A stretch of DNA of 42,363 nucleotides from Clostridiaceae bacterium (GTDB taxonomy: Bacteria; Bacillota; Clostridia; DSM-8532). Location of the stretch: assembly GCA_012839205.1 (NCBI GenBank), contig DUNT01000122.1:1-42363 (forward strand). The letters are read 5' to 3'. The translations under genes and the position numbers were made by a program. The notes below the pieces were generated by a model. That model saw nothing but the letters and a program-made list of their open reading frames with translations. It was not told where the DNA came from and made no database searches. The first letter of the stretch is position 1; every line of letters begins with the position of its first letter. Below are positions 14,622 through 24,122 of the stretch, piece by piece.

Positions 14622-14871
14622 AACAGGATTTAAAATTCTCATCATATCAATTTTCATTAAGTGCTTTCTTCGCTGCAATATGGATTTCTTTAAAATTAGT
14701 ATTGCCACAAATGTTTAAAGTATCCTAATAGGCCACACAAAGAATAATTGGTTGACAGTTCAATCGGTACCTTATTGACAGGGCACTTTTTTGCTAATCA
14801 AAGTGAGACTGAATAATTTATTGGAATAATATTTATTAAGTTGAAAATGCAAAACGGCTCCTTTCCTTGAC
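14622..14871. other. Intergenic stretch before the riboswitch promoter, nothing recognised
   Basis: There is no ORF with a ribosome site and no RNA gene that I recognise. Two TTGACAG copies occur about 22 bases apart (14753 and 14775 region), without a matching -10 box. Confidence 0.45.
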
Positions 14872-14900
14872 TTAACTTAGTTTTATGTTAACATTATAAT
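14872..14900 (+). promoter_or_regulatory. Promoter of the c-di-AMP riboswitch / SulP-Mrp operon
   Basis: TTAACT (14872-14877) and a perfect TATAAT (14895-14900) are separated by 17 bases. Transcription would begin about 10-20 bases before the aptamer. A TTGACT sits five bases further upstream but with a poor 22-base spacing. Confidence 0.6.
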
Positions 14901-14919
14901 ATAGTGTAATAATTTAAAT

Positions 14920-15036
14920 AACGATATCTCCGAATTTTTCAAAAGAAACGGGGGACCCAACTTTGGGGTGAATCCTAATTTTCAGGTAGGGCAACTTGGT
15001 GGCCCGAACCCGTCAGCTAACCTCGTAGGAGTTTCC
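14920..15036 (+). promoter_or_regulatory. ydaO/yuaA-type cyclic di-AMP riboswitch aptamer
   Basis: The conserved core is present in order: ATCTCCGAAT, CGGGGGACCCAA, GGGGTGAATCC, CAGGTAGGGCAA, GGCCCGAACCCGTCAG, CTAACCTCGTAGG. These are the hallmark blocks of the ydaO-yuaA aptamer. The closing stem is likely CTCC (14928-14931) with GGAG (15028-15031). This class binds two c-di-AMP molecules and typically turns expression off. A terminator follows directly, so it should gate transcription of the SulP gene and, if the unit is continuous, the Mrp genes. Confidence 0.96.
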
Positions 15037-15079
15037 AAGCGTTGTGTTGAGTTTTTTAGCTTAACCTGCGCTTTTTTTT
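15037..15079 (+). terminator. Riboswitch expression-platform terminator
   Basis: AAGCG pairs with CGCTT and GTTGAG with CTTAAC, around a TTTTTTAG-side loop with a small internal loop. Eight T follow (15072-15079). It starts only a few bases after the aptamer. Confidence 0.88.
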
Positions 15080-15146
15080 GTGCGCTCAAAAGTTTTTACA
15101 AGAACAGGCTTTTACTGGTATTACTACTTATTATGGGGTGAGTTTT

Positions 15147-16676
15147 TTGACAGAATTGTGGCCGCGTATTCGGTTTGACATTATAGGAGGATTAACCGCT
15201 GCAATTGTAGCTCTACCTCTTGCTTTAGCCTTTGGGATTGCAAGTGGAGCAGGTGCATTGGCAGGGTTATATGCATCAATCTTTGGTGGTGTTACAGCGG
15301 CCATATTTGGTGGTTGCGGTGTACAGATTACTGGGCCTACAGGTGCAATGACAGCTGTTTTGATCAGCGTTATCAGCCAATATGGGATGGGCGGCATGCT
15401 TCTGGCCGGACTTTTGGCAGGTCTGATGCAGGTGATTTTTGGATTACTTAGATTAGGTAAGTTCGTTAAATATCTGCCGCAGCCAGTAGTAGCCGGTTTC
15501 ACCAATGGAGTATCTATCTTATTTTTTATGACAGCAATTGATGATGCTCATAAAACCCTTACTATAACTATAATTACTGTATTAACAATTATTTTGGCTT
15601 TACGCTTTTTAAAGCAAGTTCCGGAATCCTTGTTAGGGCTTTTGATAGGGTTAGTCGTAAATGAGCTTTTCATTCACAGCCCACACGTTGTGGGTGAAAT
15701 TCCTTTTCGTTTACCCCAACTTGGATTTGACAATATGCCTTTTAGTGAGATTGGTAATCTGATTATGCCCGCTTTTACCATTTGTCTTTTAGGGGGAATC
15801 TCAGCGCTATTATCAGCTGAGGTCACCGATGGAATGCTGGGTACCAAGCATAACAGTAACCGGGAGATTATAGGCCAAGGATTAGGGAATATCGTCTCTT
15901 CATTGGTTGGCGGCATACCTGTATCCGGCGCTGTTGCTCGTTCTGGGGCAAATGTTCATAGTGGAGGTCGTACCCGGCTTTCAAGTATTATGCATTCTGT
16001 TTTTTTAGCGTTAATGGTTTTAGCCCTTGGTCCTGTTGTCAGGCGCATACCACTAGCCTCATTATCAGCTATTCTCATGGTTGCCTCGGTTCGTACGGCT
16101 GATTGGAAAAGTATAAAACTAATCCCGCGCGCTCGATGGAGCTACGGGGCAATTATGGTTATTACAACCATACTGACTGTGGTAATAAATTTAACTATTG
16201 CAGTGGTGGCAGGGGTATTAATCTCCGGGGTAATGGTGTTGGTAGAATTGTCATCTTCACCACGCAGAAAAATTGCTGGTGATGAAAGCTCTACATCAAC
16301 CACTATTTCTATTCATCCAGATATAGAAGTTATCTCTCTCCAAGGATTCTTATTTTTTGTTGGAGTAGAAAATTTAAGGCATCAAATAAGAGAGACGTCG
16401 ATAAAATCTGCATTGGTTCTGAATTTTTCTGATGTATGGGTGATAGATGAAACCGGGGCACTTGTGCTTAAGGATCTTTATTGGCAACTTCATAGAGAAG
16501 GAAAGAGCATGTATATTGCTGGACTTAATAGACAGCCACTTAGAGTTTTGACAAGACTGGGAGTAATAGATGATATTGGCGGAAACCGGGTGTACAGGAG
16601 CCTAGATACTGCAATTAAAAAAGTTACCCGAGAGTTGGTTCGGGATGGTTGCGACAAGTTTATATGTGTATCTTAG
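15147..16676 (+). CDS. SulP-family anion (sulfate or bicarbonate-type) transporter with STAS domain
   Basis: This protein of about 509 residues has a first helix with the SulP signature-like GGLTAAIVALPLALAFGIASG, then 10-12 further membrane segments up to about residue 385. A C-terminal STAS domain (about 400-500) contains VLNFSDVWVIDETGALVL. SulP proteins move sulfate, bicarbonate or other anions, often with Na+ or H+. I place the start at a TTG six bases after GGGGTGA, clear of the riboswitch terminator; a GTG nine bases earlier is possible. Being first in an Mrp operon suggests Na+-coupled anion uptake, perhaps bicarbonate; the substrate cannot be read from sequence. Confidence 0.88.
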   Translation: MTELWPRIRFDIIGGLTAAIVALPLALAFGIASGAGALAGLYASIFGGVTAAIFGGCGVQITGPTGAMTAVLISVISQYGMGGMLLAGLLAGLMQVIFGLLRLGKFVKYLPQPVVAGFTNGVSILFFMTAIDDAHKTLTITIITVLTIILALRFLKQVPESLLGLLIGLVVNELFIHSPHVVGEIPFRLPQLGFDNMPFSEIGNLIMPAFTICLLGGISALLSAEVTDGMLGTKHNSNREIIGQGLGNIVSSLVGGIPVSGAVARSGANVHSGGRTRLSSIMHSVFLALMVLALGPVVRRIPLASLSAILMVASVRTADWKSIKLIPRARWSYGAIMVITTILTVVINLTIAVVAGVLISGVMVLVELSSSPRRKIAGDESSTSTTISIHPDIEVISLQGFLFFVGVENLRHQIRETSIKSALVLNFSDVWVIDETGALVLKDLYWQLHREGKSMYIAGLNRQPLRVLTRLGVIDDIGGNRVYRSLDTAIKKVTRELVRDGCDKFICVS

Positions 16677-16731
16677 TGGGAGAAGTAACTAATTAATGTT
16701 ATATATTTTAACTTTTAAGAAAAGAGGTTTT

Positions 16732-17313
16732 ATGGTGCGAAAACGATCACTGATTCTTTATATTTTATTATTAATGTTTTGGATTGTGATTTCTGCGGAG
16801 ATTGATTTTCAACATGTTTTTGTTGGAGCAATTGTTTCCTTTGCTACTGTTTGGTTCTGGCAGGATCTTGGACCAAGACAGCCCAGTGTACCTACTGCCG
16901 GAGTATTCCTGCTATTAATCCGCTGTATGCTAATGATGGTATGGTATATTATTCAATCAAATATTGCCGTGGCAAAAACGCTATTGTTTAATAAGCCTCC
17001 GTCTAAGCCCATGTTTGTCATTATGGAAACTTCTATCATGAGTAACTGGGGGAGAGTACTGCTTGGTACCTGTATCACCATTGCCCCAGGCTCGGCAACT
17101 ATAGATATTGATCCGGAAACCGGCCGGTTCATTGTACATGCACTTACTGAAGAAACCGCAGTTGGCTTATTATATTGGCGGATTATCGATGAAATAGAAA
17201 GACTGGAAAAACGAATGAAAAGGGGTGAGACACATGTTGTGGATGTTGGCAGGACTCCTGGTATTAATTCTTCTGATTCTCCTGCGAGCGATTATAGGGC
17301 CGACAGTCCTTGA
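16732..17313 (+). CDS. mrpE: Na+/H+ antiporter subunit E (MrpE/MnhE-like)
   Basis: This product of about 193 residues has two or three membrane helices (about 6-23, 28-44 and 60-85), then a cytoplasmic domain with WGRVLLGTCITIAPGSATIDID and FIVHALTE, the typical MnhE pattern (also MbhA of membrane-bound hydrogenases). The ATG preceded by AAGAGG is chosen; an in-frame ATG 36 bases earlier is possible. It begins about 55 bases after the SulP stop and overlaps the next gene by 80 bases. It is part of the membrane antiporter complex. Confidence 0.9.
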   Translation: MVRKRSLILYILLLMFWIVISAEIDFQHVFVGAIVSFATVWFWQDLGPRQPSVPTAGVFLLLIRCMLMMVWYIIQSNIAVAKTLLFNKPPSKPMFVIMETSIMSNWGRVLLGTCITIAPGSATIDIDPETGRFIVHALTEETAVGLLYWRIIDEIERLEKRMKRGETHVVDVGRTPGINSSDSPASDYRADSP

Positions 17314-17545
17314 TCGTCTCATTTCTATTAATGCAATAACCAGTAAAGTAAGCGTTATTATTTTATTGATGGCTTTTGCAAGAAGCGAGTATGGTTTTAT
17401 CGACATAGCTTTCGTTTTTATGTTATGCGGATTTGTGGGTTCGCTTTGGATAATTAAGGTACTCACACCCGGCGACTGGCAGCTTAGGATACCGGGATTA
17501 AAAGGTTTTGAAGGTGAAAAAGAGGAAGGGATTTCAAATGATTAG
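17234..17545 (+). CDS. mrpF: Na+/H+ antiporter subunit F (MrpF/MnhF-like)
   Basis: This 103-residue, three-helix protein has the family pattern LLRAIIGPTVLDRLISINAITSKV near the N-terminus and DIAFVFMLCGFVGSLWIIK in the last helix. The start is the ATG after AGGGGTGA; an in-frame GTG nine bases earlier is less likely. It overlaps mrpE by 80 bases in another frame and overlaps mrpG by eight bases. The C-terminus is slightly extended and Lys/Glu-rich. It is a small structural subunit of the Mrp/Mbh membrane arm. Confidence 0.9.
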   Translation: MLWMLAGLLVLILLILLRAIIGPTVLDRLISINAITSKVSVIILLMAFARSEYGFIDIAFVFMLCGFVGSLWIIKVLTPGDWQLRIPGLKGFEGEKEEGISND

Positions 17546-17849
17546 AATTATTGCATATATCTGTTTTGTTGGCTCATTTTTAGCCTTCAGTTCCGGAACA
17601 TTAGGTCTTTTTAAATTTCCGGACCCCTACACCCGTATGCATGCATTGGGAATGAGTGACACTCTCGGGGTGGGTCTTGTTGGGCTTGGCCTTATTTTAC
17701 TTAGTCCCGACTGGATTTTGAGGTTTAAATTAATAATACTGCTATTTTTGTTCTGGCTTATTAACCCTACAATGTCACATTTGATTGCAAAAGCAGGCTT
17801 AATTCACGGTGTAAAACCTGTTAAAGATACAAAGCTGAAGAAAGGGTGA
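17538..17849 (+). CDS. mrpG: Na+/H+ antiporter subunit G (MrpG/MnhG-like)
   Basis: This 103-residue, three-helix protein carries GTLGLFKFPDPYTRMHALGMSDTLGVG, the clearest MnhG signature. The start is the ATG after GAGGAAGGG, which overlaps the end of mrpF by eight bases. It ends four bases before the next start. Equivalent to MbhC in membrane-bound hydrogenases. Confidence 0.92.
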   Translation: MIRIIAYICFVGSFLAFSSGTLGLFKFPDPYTRMHALGMSDTLGVGLVGLGLILLSPDWILRFKLIILLFLFWLINPTMSHLIAKAGLIHGVKPVKDTKLKKG

Positions 17850-17853
17850 GGGT

Positions 17854-18105
17854 ATGAATTTTGTAGCTGCTGATTATTGGATTATGTTCTTATTGCTGAT
17901 TCTGATAATTACATCTCTGGCCATGTATTTTATAAAGGATTTATTGCATGCAGTAATTGTCTATGGTGCATACACCTTGACCATGGCTCTTATATGGCTG
18001 CAGATGAATACTCCAGATCTTGCCATAACTGAAGCTGCAGCGGGAATATGCATGACAGTATTAATGATGATTGTTGTTTTCCGCACCAGCCGAAGGGAGG
18101 AATAG
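17854..18105 (+). CDS. DUF4040 / MbhD-like antiporter subunit (detached part of MrpA)
   Basis: This 83-residue, three-helix protein has LHAVIVYGAYTLTMALIWL and NTPDLAITEAAAGICMTVLMM. This matches the segment that in Bacillus-type Mrp complexes forms part of the C-terminal region of MrpA, and in archaeal Mbh is the separate subunit MbhD. The conserved Glu in ITEAA is expected to lie in the ion pathway (family knowledge). It starts after AGGGTGAGGGT and is separated by five bases from the next gene. Confidence 0.85.
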   Translation: MNFVAADYWIMFLLLILIITSLAMYFIKDLLHAVIVYGAYTLTMALIWLQMNTPDLAITEAAAGICMTVLMMIVVFRTSRREE

Positions 18106-18110
18106 CAACG

Positions 18111-18413
18111 ATGAGAAAAAGAATAAGGAATTTGTTCATTCTGATTCTAATTATAATGGCTGTCTATGGAATAATACTTGCGGTTGTAGAATTGCCTCCT
18201 TACGGTATGCCCGACAATCCTGTCCATAATGAAGTTTCTGAGCGCTATTTTAATGATGCTCTGGAAGATACCGGAGTTCTGAATATGGTAACTTCTATTG
18301 TGCTTGATTACAGGGCTTACGATACCATGTTCGAGACCATTGTTTTATTTACAGCAGCACTCGCAGTGGTTATTACCATAAAAACTTCAAAAAGTAAGGA
18401 GAATGGTAAATGA
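18111..18413 (+). CDS. MbhE-like antiporter subunit (detached C-terminal part of MrpA)
   Basis: This 100-residue protein has two helices, about 8-26 and 73-92, linked by an outer loop (PPYGMPDNPVHNEVSERYF). The VTSIVLDYRAYDTMFETIVLFTA motif is the hallmark of the MrpA C-terminus/MbhE. The ATG is preceded by GGGAGGAA. It overlaps the next gene by four bases (ATGA). Together with the DUF4040 gene it supplies what MrpA would carry as one chain. Confidence 0.85.
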   Translation: MRKRIRNLFILILIIMAVYGIILAVVELPPYGMPDNPVHNEVSERYFNDALEDTGVLNMVTSIVLDYRAYDTMFETIVLFTAALAVVITIKTSKSKENGK

Positions 18414-18832
18414 AAGACTTTATCCTTAAGCGTATGGCTTCAATAATATTGCCGTTTATTTGCATATATGGTTTTTACGTAATTTTACACGGCCATGTTT
18501 CTCCGGGCGGTTCATTTGCCGGGGGTATCATAGTGGGTTTAAGTTTTATCGCATACTCCACCATTTACGGTATTGAAAAAGGACGTAAAAAACTTCCGGA
18601 AAAAGTGCTGGTTGCAGCAGAGAGTTACGGCACCCTTTGGTATGGAATAATGGGGTTGGTAGGCATTATAAAAGGAGTTCCTTTCCTGGCAAACAAGCTA
18701 GCCGGAGTTGACCTGGGAGTGCCTGGAACCCTTAATTCAGGAGGATTGATTTCTTTTATAGGCTTTGGTGTTGGTATAAGGGTAGCCAGTACTATGGTGA
18801 CTTTGTTTTTTACTATGATGGAGGAAGAATAA
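18410..18832 (+). CDS. mrpB: Na+/H+ antiporter subunit B (MrpB/MnhB-like)
   Basis: This 140-residue, four-helix protein has the MnhB signature HGHVSPGGSFAGGIIVGLSFI and, later, NSGGLISFIGFGVGIRV. It starts by ATGA overlap with the preceding gene and ends by a TAATG overlap with mrpC, so translation is probably coupled. Equivalent to MbhF. Confidence 0.93.
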   Translation: MKDFILKRMASIILPFICIYGFYVILHGHVSPGGSFAGGIIVGLSFIAYSTIYGIEKGRKKLPEKVLVAAESYGTLWYGIMGLVGIIKGVPFLANKLAGVDLGVPGTLNSGGLISFIGFGVGIRVASTMVTLFFTMMEEE

Positions 18833-19212
18833 TGAGTGAAGTAATAAAAAAATTAATTATAAATTATCCATATTTCGCTGCTTTTATTTTATTTGCAATC
18901 GGAGCACTAACTGTGCTGACACGATCTAACCTGTTCAAGAAACTGATTGGAATTAATATTATGGAAAGCGCTGTTTTCCTTATGTTTGTTGCGGCGGGAA
19001 ATATTCGTGGTGGTTATGTGCCTATTCTAAATGGCAACAATCCCCAGACACTTTTCATTAATCCGCTGCCATCTGCTTTGATGCTGACCGGAATTGTTGT
19101 TAGTGTCAGTGTGACAGCATTTGCTTTAGCATTAATCCTTAGGTTATACCGCTCCTACGGCACTACCGATCTCCGTCGGATATACAAGATGGGAAACGAG
19201 GTGTCGGAATAA
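18832..19212 (+). CDS. mrpC: Na+/H+ antiporter subunit C (MrpC/NuoK-like)
   Basis: This 126-residue, three-helix NuoK homologue has LFKKLIGINIMESAVFLMFVA (the conserved helix-2 Glu) and DPLPSALMLTGIVVSVSVTA-like sequence (NPLPSALMLTGIVVSVS). It is part of the proton/cation channel module. It overlaps mrpB by one base and abuts mrpD without a gap. Confidence 0.93.
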   Translation: MSEVIKKLIINYPYFAAFILFAIGALTVLTRSNLFKKLIGINIMESAVFLMFVAAGNIRGGYVPILNGNNPQTLFINPLPSALMLTGIVVSVSVTAFALALILRLYRSYGTTDLRRIYKMGNEVSE

Positions 19213-20709
19213 GTGATATCAGCAATTTCAACTAACCTACCGGTATTTATAATTATTGCTCCTCTGTTTGTTGCTTTTGTTTTGCCAACCTTGGCAAAAA
19301 GAAAGAGACTGGTAGAAAACTTGGTTTTATCAGTTGAAGTATTGATGCTTTTGGGGATATGTTATCTGGCTTCAATTGTTTTGTTTCGAAAAGATATTCC
19401 TATAATATATCAGATGGGTGGATGGCCGGCTCCGTGGGGTATAGAGCTGAAGGTGGGTAGCTTAGGGACATTTTTCCTGCTAACTATAGCTATTGTAAGC
19501 CTGCCGGTAGCGCTTTTTGCCAGAGGTAATCTGACCCATGAGGTGGGGGGAAAAGAGCGGATCGCCAGGTTTTATGTACTCTATCTGCTGTTGGTGGGAG
19601 CATTGGCCGGAATGGCGCTGACTAATGACCTCTTTAATGTTTATGTTTTAGTGGAAGTAGCTACTTTAAGCTGCTGCGGGCTAGTAAGTGCCAGAAATCA
19701 TCCTAGGGCGGCTAAGGCAACCTTCACATATTTGATACTGGCAACACTGGGTTCTTGCCTTGTTATGGGCGGAATCGGTTTTATATATATCATTACCGGA
19801 CATTTAAATATGGAATTCGCATCTCGCGAACTTAGCATAATATGGCAGAATAATCCCCGTGTGGTCTGGATGGCTTTTAGCTTTATGTTAGTTGGTTTCG
19901 GGGTAAAATCAGCGCTCTTTCCATTACATGTCTGGCTGCCGGATGCACATTCTGTTGCCCCGTCTCCTGCCAGTGCTATTTTGTCCGGACTTGCTGTCAA
20001 AGGCTATATAATCTGTCTGTTAAAAGTTTTATATAATGTTTTTGGTCAAACTTTAATGCAGGCATACTCAGTACACAAAATATTGGTACTGGTTGGCATG
20101 GTTGCAATTATTGCCGGTTCCATATCTGCTTTAACACAAAAAGAGCTTAAGAGGAGACTTGCTTTTTCAACAGTGGCTCAGGTAGGCTATATCTTCTTAG
20201 GCTTTGGGCTTTTAAATACTAGGGGTTTGGCTGGCGCACTATTTTATCTTGCCAGTCACGCAGTAATTAAATCCACCCTGTTTTTGTCAGCAGCAGCTAT
20301 GCAGACTGCGACAGGCAAAAAGGAGATAAAAGATCTTTCGGGTATTGGCAGAAAAATGCCAATAACAGCTGCTGCCTTTACTGTCAGCAGTTTGGGACTG
20401 ACAGGTATACCACTGTTTTCAGGTTTCGTAGGAAAATGGAACCTTCTTCAGGGAAGCATGGAATCAGGGAGTATACTTCCGATTAGTGTAATTATTGCAG
20501 GGAGTGTACTCTGTGGGGCTTATCTTTTTCCGGTTATACGTATTGCCTATTTTGAAACTGCTCCGGAGAAAGATTGGAAGGATCCAAATCTTCCGCAAAA
20601 GCTGGCTCTTATTCTGTTGTCAGCGGTAATCGTGGTGTTGGGTGTAGTGCCAGGGCCATTTCTGGAGCTTGCTAACAGAGCTGCCGCTGAGCTGTTGGTG
20701 CTCCGGTAG
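19213..20709 (+). CDS. mrpD: Na+/H+ antiporter subunit D (MrpD, NuoM/N-like)
   Basis: This 498-residue protein of about 14 helices carries the proton_antipo_M pattern. The channel Glu lies in NVYVLVEVATLSCCG, the channel Lys in GFGVKSALFPLHVWLPDAHSVAPS, and a second Lys in the following SGLAVKGYIICLLKV. It is the main ion-translocating subunit, equivalent to MbhH. It starts with GTG directly after the mrpC stop, with GAGGTG inside mrpC as ribosome site. Confidence 0.94.
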   Translation: MISAISTNLPVFIIIAPLFVAFVLPTLAKRKRLVENLVLSVEVLMLLGICYLASIVLFRKDIPIIYQMGGWPAPWGIELKVGSLGTFFLLTIAIVSLPVALFARGNLTHEVGGKERIARFYVLYLLLVGALAGMALTNDLFNVYVLVEVATLSCCGLVSARNHPRAAKATFTYLILATLGSCLVMGGIGFIYIITGHLNMEFASRELSIIWQNNPRVVWMAFSFMLVGFGVKSALFPLHVWLPDAHSVAPSPASAILSGLAVKGYIICLLKVLYNVFGQTLMQAYSVHKILVLVGMVAIIAGSISALTQKELKRRLAFSTVAQVGYIFLGFGLLNTRGLAGALFYLASHAVIKSTLFLSAAAMQTATGKKEIKDLSGIGRKMPITAAAFTVSSLGLTGIPLFSGFVGKWNLLQGSMESGSILPISVIIAGSVLCGAYLFPVIRIAYFETAPEKDWKDPNLPQKLALILLSAVIVVLGVVPGPFLELANRAAAELLVLR

Positions 20710-20774
20710 GAGCAAATTATTTAGATAATGTAAGTAAGATGTGGCTCTTAAAGGAGCTTAAGGAGGATTAGAGG

Positions 20775-22217
20775 TTGCTTAGTCTTGTTATAGCTTTATT
20801 TAGTGGTGCAGTTGGTGGTCTTGTTGTAGCCATGATACCAGAGACCAAAAATCGTCTGCGTAACTATATAGTTTTATTATTTGCTGCATCCAGTGCATTT
20901 TTTACCTGGCATACAGCTTTGAAGGTATTTGCGGGAGAAAGAGTCAGAGTGGCTGGTGAATTGGGGGGGTTGGCTTTTAGCATTGATCCTGATCCATTAG
21001 GCGCAGTTTTCGGACTTATTGCTTCTACTTTATGGCTTTTTACCGCAGTGTATTCTTTTGGATATATGGCAGGAAAGCATAAACAGCGAACTTTCTTCAC
21101 TTTTTTTCTTATGTCTTTAACTATGACCCTGGGAGTAGCATTTTCAGGCAATCTCGTAGCACTATACCTGTTTTATGAGCTATTGACATTTGCGACTTAT
21201 CCCCTGGTGATTCATGAGCGAAGTGCTGAGGCCATGAAAGCCGGGACGAAATATATACTGTATAGTCTTTCCGGGGCAGGGGCAATCTTAATTGCCATTA
21301 TATTTACCTATGCCTGGTCCGGAAAGCTGGATTTTTCCAGTGGGCCAATGTTGGCAAATTCATTGGGTCCAGGACTTAACTGGCTCTTAATGCTATTTAT
21401 TGGAGGGTTTGGTGTTAAAGCGGCAATAATGCCGTTACACAGGTGGCTGCCGGCTGCAATGGCAGCTCCCACTCCGGTCAGCGCCCTTCTGCATGCTGTG
21501 GCAGTAGTTTATTCCGGCGTTTACGGGATTTTGCGAACTGTTTATTCCGTGTTCGGACATGAGCTTATTGGACAATTGGAAATAAGATACATACTTCCCT
21601 GGACTGCGGCCATAACTATCGTGGCCGGAATTGTTATAGCTGCACGACAGGATGTATTAAAACGGCGGCTGGCTTATCAAACTGTAAGCCACCTTTCCTA
21701 TATTCTTCTGGGTGCTTTTACACTTAACGCCTGGGGGCTGGCTGGTGCAATATTCCATATGATAAGCTATTCTACACTAAAAATCACTCTTTTCTTTTGT
21801 GCTGGCATTATTTCTGAACAGACCGGTGTGATTAAGGTAAGTAAAATTGGGGGGATTGGCAGGTTGCTTCCTAAAACAATGGCAGCCTTCAGTATTGCAA
21901 CAATGGGAATGATCGGAATGTTACCCCTTAATACTTTCTGGGGAAAGTATTACCTGATGAAAGGCAGTGTAGAAGCAGGAAAATGGCCTCTTGCTGTAGT
22001 TTTAATTATTAGCGGAATACTAAATGCAATATGTTTTGTCCCGGCTATTGTTAATGCATTTAATAGAGTGAGTACAAAAACATGCGAAGAAAAGGGAAGC
22101 AGGGTTTCACTTATGCTTGCTCCAACTCTGGCTCTGGTAATGATTGCACTTTTTATTGGTCTTATGCCGGGTATAATCTGGCCCGGGGTTGAGGCAGTTG
22201 TAAATTGGTTTTATTAA
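20775..22217 (+). CDS. Second NuoL/M/N-like antiporter subunit
   Basis: This 480-residue, about 14-helix homologue has LYLFYELLTFATYPLVIH (channel Glu), GFGVKAAIMPLHRWLPAAMAAPTPVSALLHAVAVVYSGVYG (shown in part) and VLKRRLAYQTVSHLSYI. The helix-8 Lys present in its two neighbours is replaced by the LHA type seen in NuoL/M. I use TTG as start because AGGAGGATTAGAGG precedes it. The 65-base gap after mrpD is the largest within the antiporter genes but has no terminator. It is an additional proton/cation half-channel. Confidence 0.88.
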   Translation: MLSLVIALFSGAVGGLVVAMIPETKNRLRNYIVLLFAASSAFFTWHTALKVFAGERVRVAGELGGLAFSIDPDPLGAVFGLIASTLWLFTAVYSFGYMAGKHKQRTFFTFFLMSLTMTLGVAFSGNLVALYLFYELLTFATYPLVIHERSAEAMKAGTKYILYSLSGAGAILIAIIFTYAWSGKLDFSSGPMLANSLGPGLNWLLMLFIGGFGVKAAIMPLHRWLPAAMAAPTPVSALLHAVAVVYSGVYGILRTVYSVFGHELIGQLEIRYILPWTAAITIVAGIVIAARQDVLKRRLAYQTVSHLSYILLGAFTLNAWGLAGAIFHMISYSTLKITLFFCAGIISEQTGVIKVSKIGGIGRLLPKTMAAFSIATMGMIGMLPLNTFWGKYYLMKGSVEAGKWPLAVVLIISGILNAICFVPAIVNAFNRVSTKTCEEKGSRVSLMLAPTLALVMIALFIGLMPGIIWPGVEAVVNWFY

Positions 22218-22235
22218 TTAAAGGGGGTCAAAACT

Positions 22236-24122
22236 TTGATACTTGCAATTCTTCCTGTTATTCCTCTTATAGGAGTGCTGTTTCTCCTTTTTAAGAGGGG
22301 CAGATTCATAAATATACCTTTGATTACCAGTGCTGTTGTTCTGGTTTTTGGAGTTTGCGGCCTGCAAAGTGTTTTTGAAGGAATTCCATTAAACTATACA
22401 GTCCCTCTTCCAGGGCCTGTTGCGCCGAATTTCCATGCTGACAGCCTGTCTGCTATTTTTGTGCTGGCGGCTGGTTTTATTTGGTCTGTGGTTTCTATAT
22501 ATGTGCCTGAATATATGGAGCAGGAAGGCAGAACCAAAGTCTTTGAATTATGTTCCTTATTAACTTTATCGGCGGTCCTGGGAGTTTTCCTGGCAGGCGA
22601 CTTATTTACTTTATTACTTTTCTTTGAGCTTATGACTGTTTCATCCTTCTTCTGGGTTATTCACAGAGGAAATAAAGAGGCAATAAGGGCGGGGTATTTT
22701 TACTTATTCTATAGTATCGTTGGTGGACTTTTTCTGGCTTTGGGAATAGTCTTTATGGGCACAGCCACCGATATTATGCCCATTATAGGATCAGGGCCGG
22801 TTAATCCTCTGAATTCTAAAGCATTTACCTGGAGTATTGTTCTGCTAATTATAGGATTTGGAATCAAGGCAGGCATGGTGCCGTTACACCTGTGGTTGCC
22901 TCATGCACACTCGGTGGCCCCTGCTCCCGGAAGTGCGCTTTTATCGGGATTACTTATTAAGGTGGGAGCATACGGGCTTATTAGAGTCGGTGAGTTTGCC
23001 GGCTGGGGTACATATTTGCAGGGAGGGGTTTCCTGGTTAGGATCAGGTCTTGCTGTTCTTGGTACCTGTACTATGTTGGTGGGAGTTTTGGCAGCTTTAG
23101 TCCAGAGTGATGCCAAACGGCTTTTGGCATATCATAGTATAAGCCAAATAGGATACATTATCCTGGGTTTGGGGATTGGACTTTATCTGGGACCAGATGG
23201 AGGCCTTGGTCTTATTGGCTCCATCTATCATATTGTCAACCATACCTTGTTTAAAGCAGCACTCTTTTTGGGTGTAGGTATCATCTATATTGGTACCAAT
23301 GAAACCAATTTATATAAACTGGGAGGGCTCTGGCGGCGTTTTCCTCTGACAGCTTTATTTATGTTAATAGCGGTTTTGGGTATTACTGGCGCACCCGGGC
23401 TAAATGGTTATGCCAGTAAGACTCTGCTCCACCATGCTGTAAGTCACGCTGCAGAAAATGGACCGCAATGGATTATATGGAGTGAACGGTTGTTTTTACT
23501 AGTGGGAGTCGGAACGGCTACGTCATTTATTAAACTTTATTATTTAATATTCCTGGGAAAGCCTGCTAAAGTTAAAGTCAATGAGAATAAATCATTTGGA
23601 ATGAATTTAGCTATGGGTTTACTTGCAGCTGTTATGATAGTAATTGGGTTTAAGCCTGAAATTTTCGCCAGTATTGCTGCAGCTCCGGCGGCACAGGTTT
23701 TGGGTATGAAAAATGCTGCAGCTACTTTGGAGAGTCTCTCTTTTTGGAATCCGAGTGATGTTTTAAGTATGATTATTACCTTAGCAATCGGAGGTTTAAC
23801 ATGTTGGCTGGGATTCAGAAGCGGAGCATTTCATTGGCATATTCCTGCCTGGCTGACATTGGAAGGCATTGGAAAACTGACAGGCATGAGTATTTTGTTT
23901 ATTTGGAGGCGAGGAGCTGAGTGGTATGGCTCAATAGTTGCAACTGCAGGCAGAGCATCCGGAAACCTGAGGGCTCGGCTGTTTAAGTATTTTCGCAGAT
24001 TCGATAAATCAAGGAGCGGAAACATTGGCAAGATTAATCTGACGGGTATCAGTGCTGATGCGGCATTATTAATTACAGTACTAATGTTTCTGATTGTGTG
24101 GTATGCTTTTATAGTCAAATAA
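22236..24122 (+). CDS. Third NuoL-like antiporter subunit with extended C-terminus
   Basis: This 628-residue protein has the core LLLFFELMTVSSFFWVIH (channel Glu), GFGIKAGMVPLHLWLPHAHS (channel Lys) and SALLSGLLIKVGAYGLIRV (second Lys). After about residue 490 it has extra hydrophobic and basic segments and ends in a final helix (ALLITVLMFLIVWYAFIV). This recalls the extended tail of NuoL/MrpA-type subunits. TTG start after AAGGGGGTC, 18 bases after the previous stop. It ends the operon; no hydrogenase or ferredoxin-type subunit follows. Confidence 0.88.
   Translation: MILAILPVIPLIGVLFLLFKRGRFINIPLITSAVVLVFGVCGLQSVFEGIPLNYTVPLPGPVAPNFHADSLSAIFVLAAGFIWSVVSIYVPEYMEQEGRTKVFELCSLLTLSAVLGVFLAGDLFTLLLFFELMTVSSFFWVIHRGNKEAIRAGYFYLFYSIVGGLFLALGIVFMGTATDIMPIIGSGPVNPLNSKAFTWSIVLLIIGFGIKAGMVPLHLWLPHAHSVAPAPGSALLSGLLIKVGAYGLIRVGEFAGWGTYLQGGVSWLGSGLAVLGTCTMLVGVLAALVQSDAKRLLAYHSISQIGYIILGLGIGLYLGPDGGLGLIGSIYHIVNHTLFKAALFLGVGIIYIGTNETNLYKLGGLWRRFPLTALFMLIAVLGITGAPGLNGYASKTLLHHAVSHAAENGPQWIIWSERLFLLVGVGTATSFIKLYYLIFLGKPAKVKVNENKSFGMNLAMGLLAAVMIVIGFKPEIFASIAAAPAAQVLGMKNAAATLESLSFWNPSDVLSMIITLAIGGLTCWLGFRSGAFHWHIPAWLTLEGIGKLTGMSILFIWRRGAEWYGSIVATAGRASGNLRARLFKYFRRFDKSRSGNIGKINLTGISADAALLITVLMFLIVWYAFIVK

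Follow-up and report, generated by a model that had tools for sequence, protein, structure and literature searches.

In the stretch of DNA analyzed here, comprising 42,363 nucleotides of contig DUNT01000122.1 from the Clostridiaceae bacterium assembly GCA_012839205.1 and referred to as the window, a riboswitch aptamer of the type recognizing cyclic di-adenosine monophosphate (c-di-AMP) was identified ahead of 11 genes on the forward strand. These are a gene for a SulP-family anion transporter (15147-16676) and ten genes of the Mrp antiporter type extending up to position 24122 (Table 1). An earlier note on this DNA had described a c-di-AMP riboswitch heading a SulP and Mrp unit of ten genes; the arrangement was recovered and found to be conserved in about 30 species, but the number of genes has to be raised to 11 (SulP plus ten of Mrp type).

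Table 1. Features of the riboswitch-SulP-Mrp locus, in window coordinates.
Feature	Position	Strand	Basis
Sigma-70-type promoter, TTGACT-16-TAACAT with TG extension	14867..14894	+	Consensus match; position shared by most relatives
c-di-AMP riboswitch aptamer, RF00379 (ydaO/yuaA)	14918..15046	+	cmscan, full length
Intrinsic terminator (expression platform), AAGCG...CGCTT stem and U-tract	15037..15079	+	Conserved in relatives
SulP/SLC26 family anion transporter with STAS domain, 509 aa	15147..16676	+	Pfam Sulfate_transp 200 bits, STAS 54 bits
mrpE	16732..17313	+	Pfam MNHE 94.5 bits
mrpF	17225..17545	+	Pfam MrpF_PhaF 34.8 bits
mrpG	17538..17849	+	TIGR01300 66.3 bits, cut-off 63.1
MbhD-like subunit, counterpart of part of MrpA C-terminus	17854..18105	+	Pfam MbhD 58.9 bits
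MbhE-like subunit, counterpart of part of MrpA C-terminus	18108..18413	+	Pfam MbhE 36.8 bits
mrpB	18410..18832	+	Pfam MnhB 84.5 bits
mrpC (NuoK-like)	18832..19212	+	Pfam Oxidored_q2 82.1 bits
Antiporter-like subunit D1 (NuoL/M/N type)	19213..20709	+	Best NCBIfam models MrpD, below cut-off; nearest solved chains 6u8y_H, 6cfw_H, 7qru_D
Antiporter-like subunit D2	20775..22217	+	Pfam Proton_antipo_M 183.6 bits; 6cfw_H 155 bits
Antiporter-like subunit D3	22236..24122	+	Pfam Proton_antipo_M 183.4 bits; 6cfw_H 183 bits; NCBIfam

The aptamer core, previously called unmistakable from the letters, was matched by the RF00379 covariance model over positions 1-134 of 134 with 99.0 bits (gathering threshold 38, E-value 1.9e-22). 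It begins 23 bases past the extended -10 promoter, from which transcription is predicted to start at approximately position 14901. The terminator that had been noted right behind the aptamer was likewise confirmed, with a stem at 15037-15073, a U-tract reaching to about 15079, and a folding energy of -15.1 kcal/mol. In the leader alignment, promoter and aptamer were conserved, as were the terminator arms AAGCG...CGCTT in most members. Across 23 aligned relatives, representing the members with a clear stem after exclusion of seven with shifted, weak, or interrupted terminators, the columns of the outer arms were invariant, and the inner stem varied in sequence with its folding kept. Folding of the leader alone yielded a z-score of -0.35 relative to shuffled sequences, which is uninformative because the aptamer is pseudoknotted. 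The Rfam cmscan gave no match to a Na+ riboswitch anywhere in the window.

The genes downstream of SulP encode homologues of MrpB, C, E, F, and G in one cluster (MnhB, Oxidored_q2, MNHE, MrpF_PhaF, and PhaG_MnhG, all above the Pfam gathering thresholds), accompanied by three large antiporter-type subunits rather than two and by an MrpA that is divided between an MbhD-like and an MbhE-like piece. Regarding gene content, the complete Mrp system proposed in the earlier note therefore holds, with the split MrpA and the third large subunit as its peculiarities, whereas the designation Mrp/Mbh-type has to be narrowed to Mrp-type because a hydrogenase module is missing: all 11 genes were assigned, and no hydrogenase-like redox subunit is among them. 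Among the nearest solved chains of the large subunits, 6u8y and 6cfw carry annotations as subunits of an NADH dehydrogenase or of a monovalent cation/H+ antiporter, and others belong to bacterial Mrp complexes. As judged by eye from sequences and alignments, all three large subunits have kept the glutamate of the transmembrane helix 5 (TM5) type and the lysine of the TM7 type, positions described as essential in Bacillus MrpA and MrpD (PMC5703873). The Mrp-type complex is predicted to perform Na+(K+)/H+ exchange. It resembles the irregular group 3 Mrp (CPA3) clusters in featuring MrpB, C, E, F, and G homologues together with NuoL/M/N-type subunits and no redox module, but differs from them by the split MrpA, the three large subunits, the SulP gene in front, and the leader riboswitch (PMC5703873).

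The SulP gene starts with TTG at 15147, preceded by GGGGTGAG, and mrpE presumably starts with ATG at 16732, as suggested by its ribosome-binding site and by conservation with two loci from the window's genus (L027 and L050). Between SulP and mrpE, no forward-strand terminator was called, and the number of promoter-like matches across the region did not exceed chance (25 found versus 29.8 expected in the consensus scan), in agreement with the previously proposed one-strand unit without an internal terminator. Two of the refuting observations listed in the earlier note, a low covariance-model score and a separate promoter or terminator between SulP and mrpE, were thus looked for and not encountered. 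With regard to a continuous transcript, the gaps at 16676-16732 and 20709-20775 stand out.

To evaluate how often the riboswitch precedes SulP-Mrp neighbourhoods, a survey suggested in the earlier note, genome contigs were scanned with a four-member SulP alignment, and the upstream DNA was analyzed using cmscan. The scan yielded 32 further loci (L077-L106, L122, and L124) encoding a SulP with 51-74% identity, besides more distant SulP homologues in Bacteroidales and spirochaetes. RF00379 was detected just upstream of SulP in 29 out of these 32 loci (91-103 bits, plus one 74-bit match clipped by a contig end). Including the window, this corresponds to 30 of 31 testable loci, since L096 and L105, whose contigs end 120-164 bases before SulP, were excluded from the count. 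The Mrp set follows SulP directly in 28 of the 32 loci, or in 29 of 33 with the window. The loci represent about 30 independent genomes, L086 and L101 originating from one metagenome-assembled genome (MAG), L088 and L097 from another, and L094 and L095 being nearly identical. A strict core motif failed on most relatives, which differ around AACC(T/C)CG and were recovered by cmscan. In an even draw from the phylum, a close SulP was present in 13 out of 398 genomes, belonging to six GTDB families of the one phylum.

Within the window's own family (32 genomes), mrpE was found in eight genomes, six of them with the riboswitch directly upstream; SulP lies in between in four of these (the window, L008, L029, and L052) and is absent from two (L027 and L050). 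Two genomes (G018 and G023) harbor Mrp without SulP and without the riboswitch on that contig. In a class-level sample of 245 genomes, 35 gave an mrpE match, and none outside the window's family had the riboswitch immediately before Mrp. Judged by these sequence comparisons, the riboswitch, SulP, and Mrp look like a conserved unit for the response to salt and pH in about 30 species of uncultured Bacillota and not like a one-off.

Several loci depart from this layout. In L027 and L050, SulP has been cleanly lost, and riboswitch and terminator are kept before mrpE: the L027 leader aligns to the window until about 15131 and resumes at about 16700, with approximately 100 bases in between, and that of L050 aligns until about 15091 and resumes at about 16703, with approximately 10 bases in between. 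With SulP excised, the switch has come to lie directly before mrpE, indicating that Mrp by itself is a target of the riboswitch. In L102 (8379-16418), the place of Mrp behind riboswitch and SulP is taken by genes of an F-type ATP synthase in the order a, c, b, alpha, gamma, beta, and epsilon (the last three identified by eye); the alpha subunit carries an OSCP-like N-terminal stretch scoring 22.3 bits against Pfam OSCP, at the cut-off. In L096, SulP precedes HypA and other hyp-like genes as well as two Proton_antipo_M (NuoL-like) proteins. L106 (10001-11595) comprises the riboswitch and a SulP broken into two frames, without Mrp, and is possibly a decaying gene or an assembly error. A counter-example is L101 (6226-7929), an additional SulP gene from the same MAG as L086, which has neither riboswitch nor Mrp and encodes alanine at the position of BicA Thr262.

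Since each partner was found with the riboswitch alone (L027 and L050 without SulP, L102 and L106 without Mrp), SulP and Mrp might be mere neighbours, with the riboswitch governing one of them and the other being read through passively. This appears quite unlikely, however, because order and short gaps are kept in 29 of 33 loci and because the distances of SulP and Mrp are correlated (Mantel r 0.90, with 0 of 2000 permutations as high), although such a correlation would also result if both were simply inherited vertically together. Furthermore, none of the genes flanking the cassette in the window (dnaG, rpoD, infC, and rplT) was detected around the other close-SulP loci, so that a constant genomic context does not account for the cohesion of the cassette.

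The membership of the transporter in the SulP/SLC26 family is evident from its Sulfate_transp and STAS domains, both of which it has in common with BicA, SLC26Dg, and other carriers of the family. Its nearest solved chain is SLC26Dg (5da0); the nearly gap-free alignment to this chain led to the rejection of a missing helix, which a gap relative to the Pfam profile had suggested. It differs from the known carriers by a serine replacing the canonical acid of TM8, by an arginine in TM10, and by its failure to reach the NCBIfam cut-offs for DauA, BicA, or sulP. The earlier note had suggested that SulP may use a Na+ gradient made by Mrp. BicA indeed ranks high for this SulP, both in the model search and among relatives of solved structure, and ion-translocating machines follow SulP in most loci. 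SulP could thus be a BicA-like Na+/HCO3- symporter fed by the Mrp gradient, forming a c-di-AMP-gated bicarbonate uptake unit serving carbon or pH needs. The Na+ ligands of BicA are Asp258, Thr262, Gly300, and Thr302 (PMC13249358), to which Ser219, Ser223, Gly261, and Val263 were aligned. Ser219, at the Asp258 position, and Arg265 in TM10 are invariant in all clade members checked. Moreover, the score against the BicA equivalog model amounts to 244.5 at a cut-off of 880, and Mrp keeps the riboswitch without SulP in two genomes. Because the ligand Asp258 is replaced by Ser219 throughout the checked clade, Na+ coupling in the manner of BicA is unlikely, and so is the bicarbonate symporter as a whole. 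What survives of the proposed pairing is a looser tie to ion-translocating machines, namely Mrp in 29 loci, the F-type ATP synthase in L102, and the hyp genes with NuoL-like subunits in L096.

This variety of partners, the loss of the TM8 acid, and an Arg265 placed as in SULTR4;1 (phmmer alignment) fit better with a Na+-independent anion carrier. Such a carrier would work by exchange or by coupling to H+, with HCO3-/Cl-, sulfate, or dicarboxylate as candidate substrates, and would offset the charge and proton load of the electrogenic Mrp or supply a counter-anion during osmotic adjustment. Such a function is a serious candidate, though short of probable, and represents a refinement of the OFF-switch interpretation presented below, with which it is compatible. 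Against it, the same stretch contains a new acid, Glu225, nearly invariant in the clade (Lys in L098), which could assume ion coupling, and the substrate is not readable from the sequence. In the Bacteroidales homologues, the corresponding residues are Glu at 219 and Thr at 225.

Taken together, we consider it likely that the leader acts as a transcriptional OFF switch on a single unit, sulP-mrpEFG-mbhDE-mrpBC-D1-D2-D3, which would be on at low c-di-AMP and would combine expulsion of Na+ by Mrp with the SulP anion carrier. At high c-di-AMP levels (K+-replete, low osmotic stress), the ligand would bind and fold the aptamer, the terminator would form, and transcription would stop. When c-di-AMP drops, under K+ limitation or hyperosmotic or salt stress, the terminator arm would be held in other pairings, allowing the RNA polymerase to read through; the Mrp antiporter would then be produced to move Na+ out in exchange for H+, together with the carrier of SulP/SLC26 fold, which most likely transports an anion balancing the charge or acid load of Mrp.

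The assumed polarity follows experimental precedent. In the Bacillus thuringiensis kdpFABC leader, c-di-AMP lifts termination from 27% to 63% (PMC6488665), and in the study on the Na+ riboswitch, OFF action was predicted and tested for a c-di-AMP aptamer set apart from its terminator (PMC9337991). By analogy, c-di-AMP should promote termination here as well, and the operon should be on when c-di-AMP is low. As c-di-AMP favours K+ export via CpaA (PMC6488665), an OFF switch suits Na+ expulsion better than K+ efflux.

Some observations weigh against this interpretation. Internal promoters occur in large operons and may escape a consensus scan. A minority of members (L088, L087, L090, L104, and L081) have a terminator of low stability or one whose U-tract is not clean. 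Folding of transcripts ending before the 3' terminator arm revealed no antiterminator pairing common to all members, the partner being the 3' strand of the aptamer in the window, L083, and L106 and the 5' leader in many others; a shared antiterminator was therefore dropped. Finally, the motif CCAAG in the strand after P1, able to pair with CTTGG in the P4 loop, shares three bases with the start of the terminator arm, so that the polarity of the switch is unreadable from sequence alone. Both motifs are kept in every readable member, and an ON switch is conceivable in which ligand binding favours pairing between loop and tail, so that the AAG of the terminator arm is sequestered and termination blocked. 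We regard this as very improbable, since GCG/CGC can still form the terminator stem without those bases and since the OFF precedent has been tested by experiment (PMC6488665).

Compared to known systems, the OFF switch proposed for the window is closest to the kdpFABC riboswitch of B. thuringiensis, which also places a full-length RF00379 aptamer and an intrinsic terminator before a cation-transport operon (PMC6488665); there, the target is a K+ importer and has been tested, whereas in the window it is SulP with a multi-subunit Na+/H+ antiporter known from sequence. The Dehalobacter tandem of Na+ and c-di-AMP riboswitches likewise features a c-di-AMP OFF switch in a sodium/osmotic programme, but serves beta-lysine synthesis, while no Na+ riboswitch was detected in the window and the target there is transport (PMC9337991). 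In a known system that includes SbtA, an Mrp-type system and an anion transporter are regulated together, as proposed here, although by a protein repressor, whereas the window has an RNA switch, SulP, and one operon.

So far, the processes known to be controlled by c-di-AMP are chiefly the traffic of K+ and osmolytes and the remodelling of the cell wall. With a conserved riboswitch before a Na+/H+ antiporter and an anion carrier, the balance of sodium, protons, and anions would be added to this list for a large group of uncultured Bacillota. Neither the switch nor the transporters are new in themselves, but their conserved combination is; in the papers searched, no link of the RF00379 riboswitch to SulP or Mrp was found, the primary gene lists of Nelson 2013 lying outside the search. 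Tentatively, the riboswitch may govern a dedicated anion-cation module in which SulP works with an ion-translocating machine (usually Mrp, and the F-type ATP synthase in one lineage) and c-di-AMP sets a coupled Na+, pH, and anion balance. If true, this would constitute an anion-transport branch of the c-di-AMP regulon. Since one type of switch is found with SulP only, with Mrp only, and with SulP and an ATP synthase, nature offers a set of variants for comparison in which the question of coupling can be tested directly.

Beyond the SulP-Mrp cassette, the window's own genome (2.3 Mb) contains three RF00379 copies, located before a dapB-like gene, before an SH3/NlpC-type cell-wall hydrolase gene, and before SulP, where the names dapB and NlpC are readings of the sequences and not family-search results. 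Both dapB (PMC9337991) and cell-wall genes (PMC7266159) are familiar targets of c-di-AMP riboswitches. Among the own genome and 60 relatives, 41 of 61 possess the riboswitch. For 73 copies, the flanks were retrieved and the first genes classified: dapB-like genes, NlpC-type and LysM cell-wall hydrolases, citrate synthase, lysine 2,3-aminomutase, HMGL-like enzymes, a single CPA2-type Na_H_Exchanger (L065), and SulP-Mrp or Mrp operons. The lysine 2,3-aminomutase, dapB, Na_H_Exchanger, citrate synthase, and hydrolase targets fit a salt/osmolyte programme.

The loop and tail motifs differ in sequence between target classes (CTCTTTC/GAAAGAG and CCTATT/AATAGG, for example). Across 99 riboswitches of all target classes, loop-tail complementarity averaged 15.9, versus 11.9 with tails swapped (300 shuffles, standard deviation 0.32, maximum 13.2), a contrast that is inflated by kinship. 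These values support pairing of the riboswitch loop with the tail, and in the hydrolase class, the pairing tail is likely the ribosome-binding site. The riboswitch of L065 (G025:C40), located ahead of the Na_H_Exchanger gene, has the same CTTGG/CCAAG loop and tail as that of the window.

Citrate synthase genes preceded by the riboswitch occur in more than one genus of the window's family, as at L005 and L024, where Pfam identified the enzyme, and at L043 and similar loci, where it was recognized by sequence resemblance. Three f46-family genomes of the same class, considered for control of Mrp, were rejected, as their riboswitch is located 3.8-5.4 kb behind mrpE on the same contig, ahead of an apparent lysine 2,3-aminomutase gene. 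In L134, L135, and L136 (genomes G093, G189, and G144), an Mrp operon is followed on the same strand by a riboswitch, an apparent lysine 2,3-aminomutase gene, and a possible acetyltransferase gene, apparently placing salt-response genes side by side. Paired c-di-AMP riboswitches on the same strand, about 1.2-1.4 kb apart, were also detected at G189:C25:16665-18187 and G093:C1:2367553-2369008.

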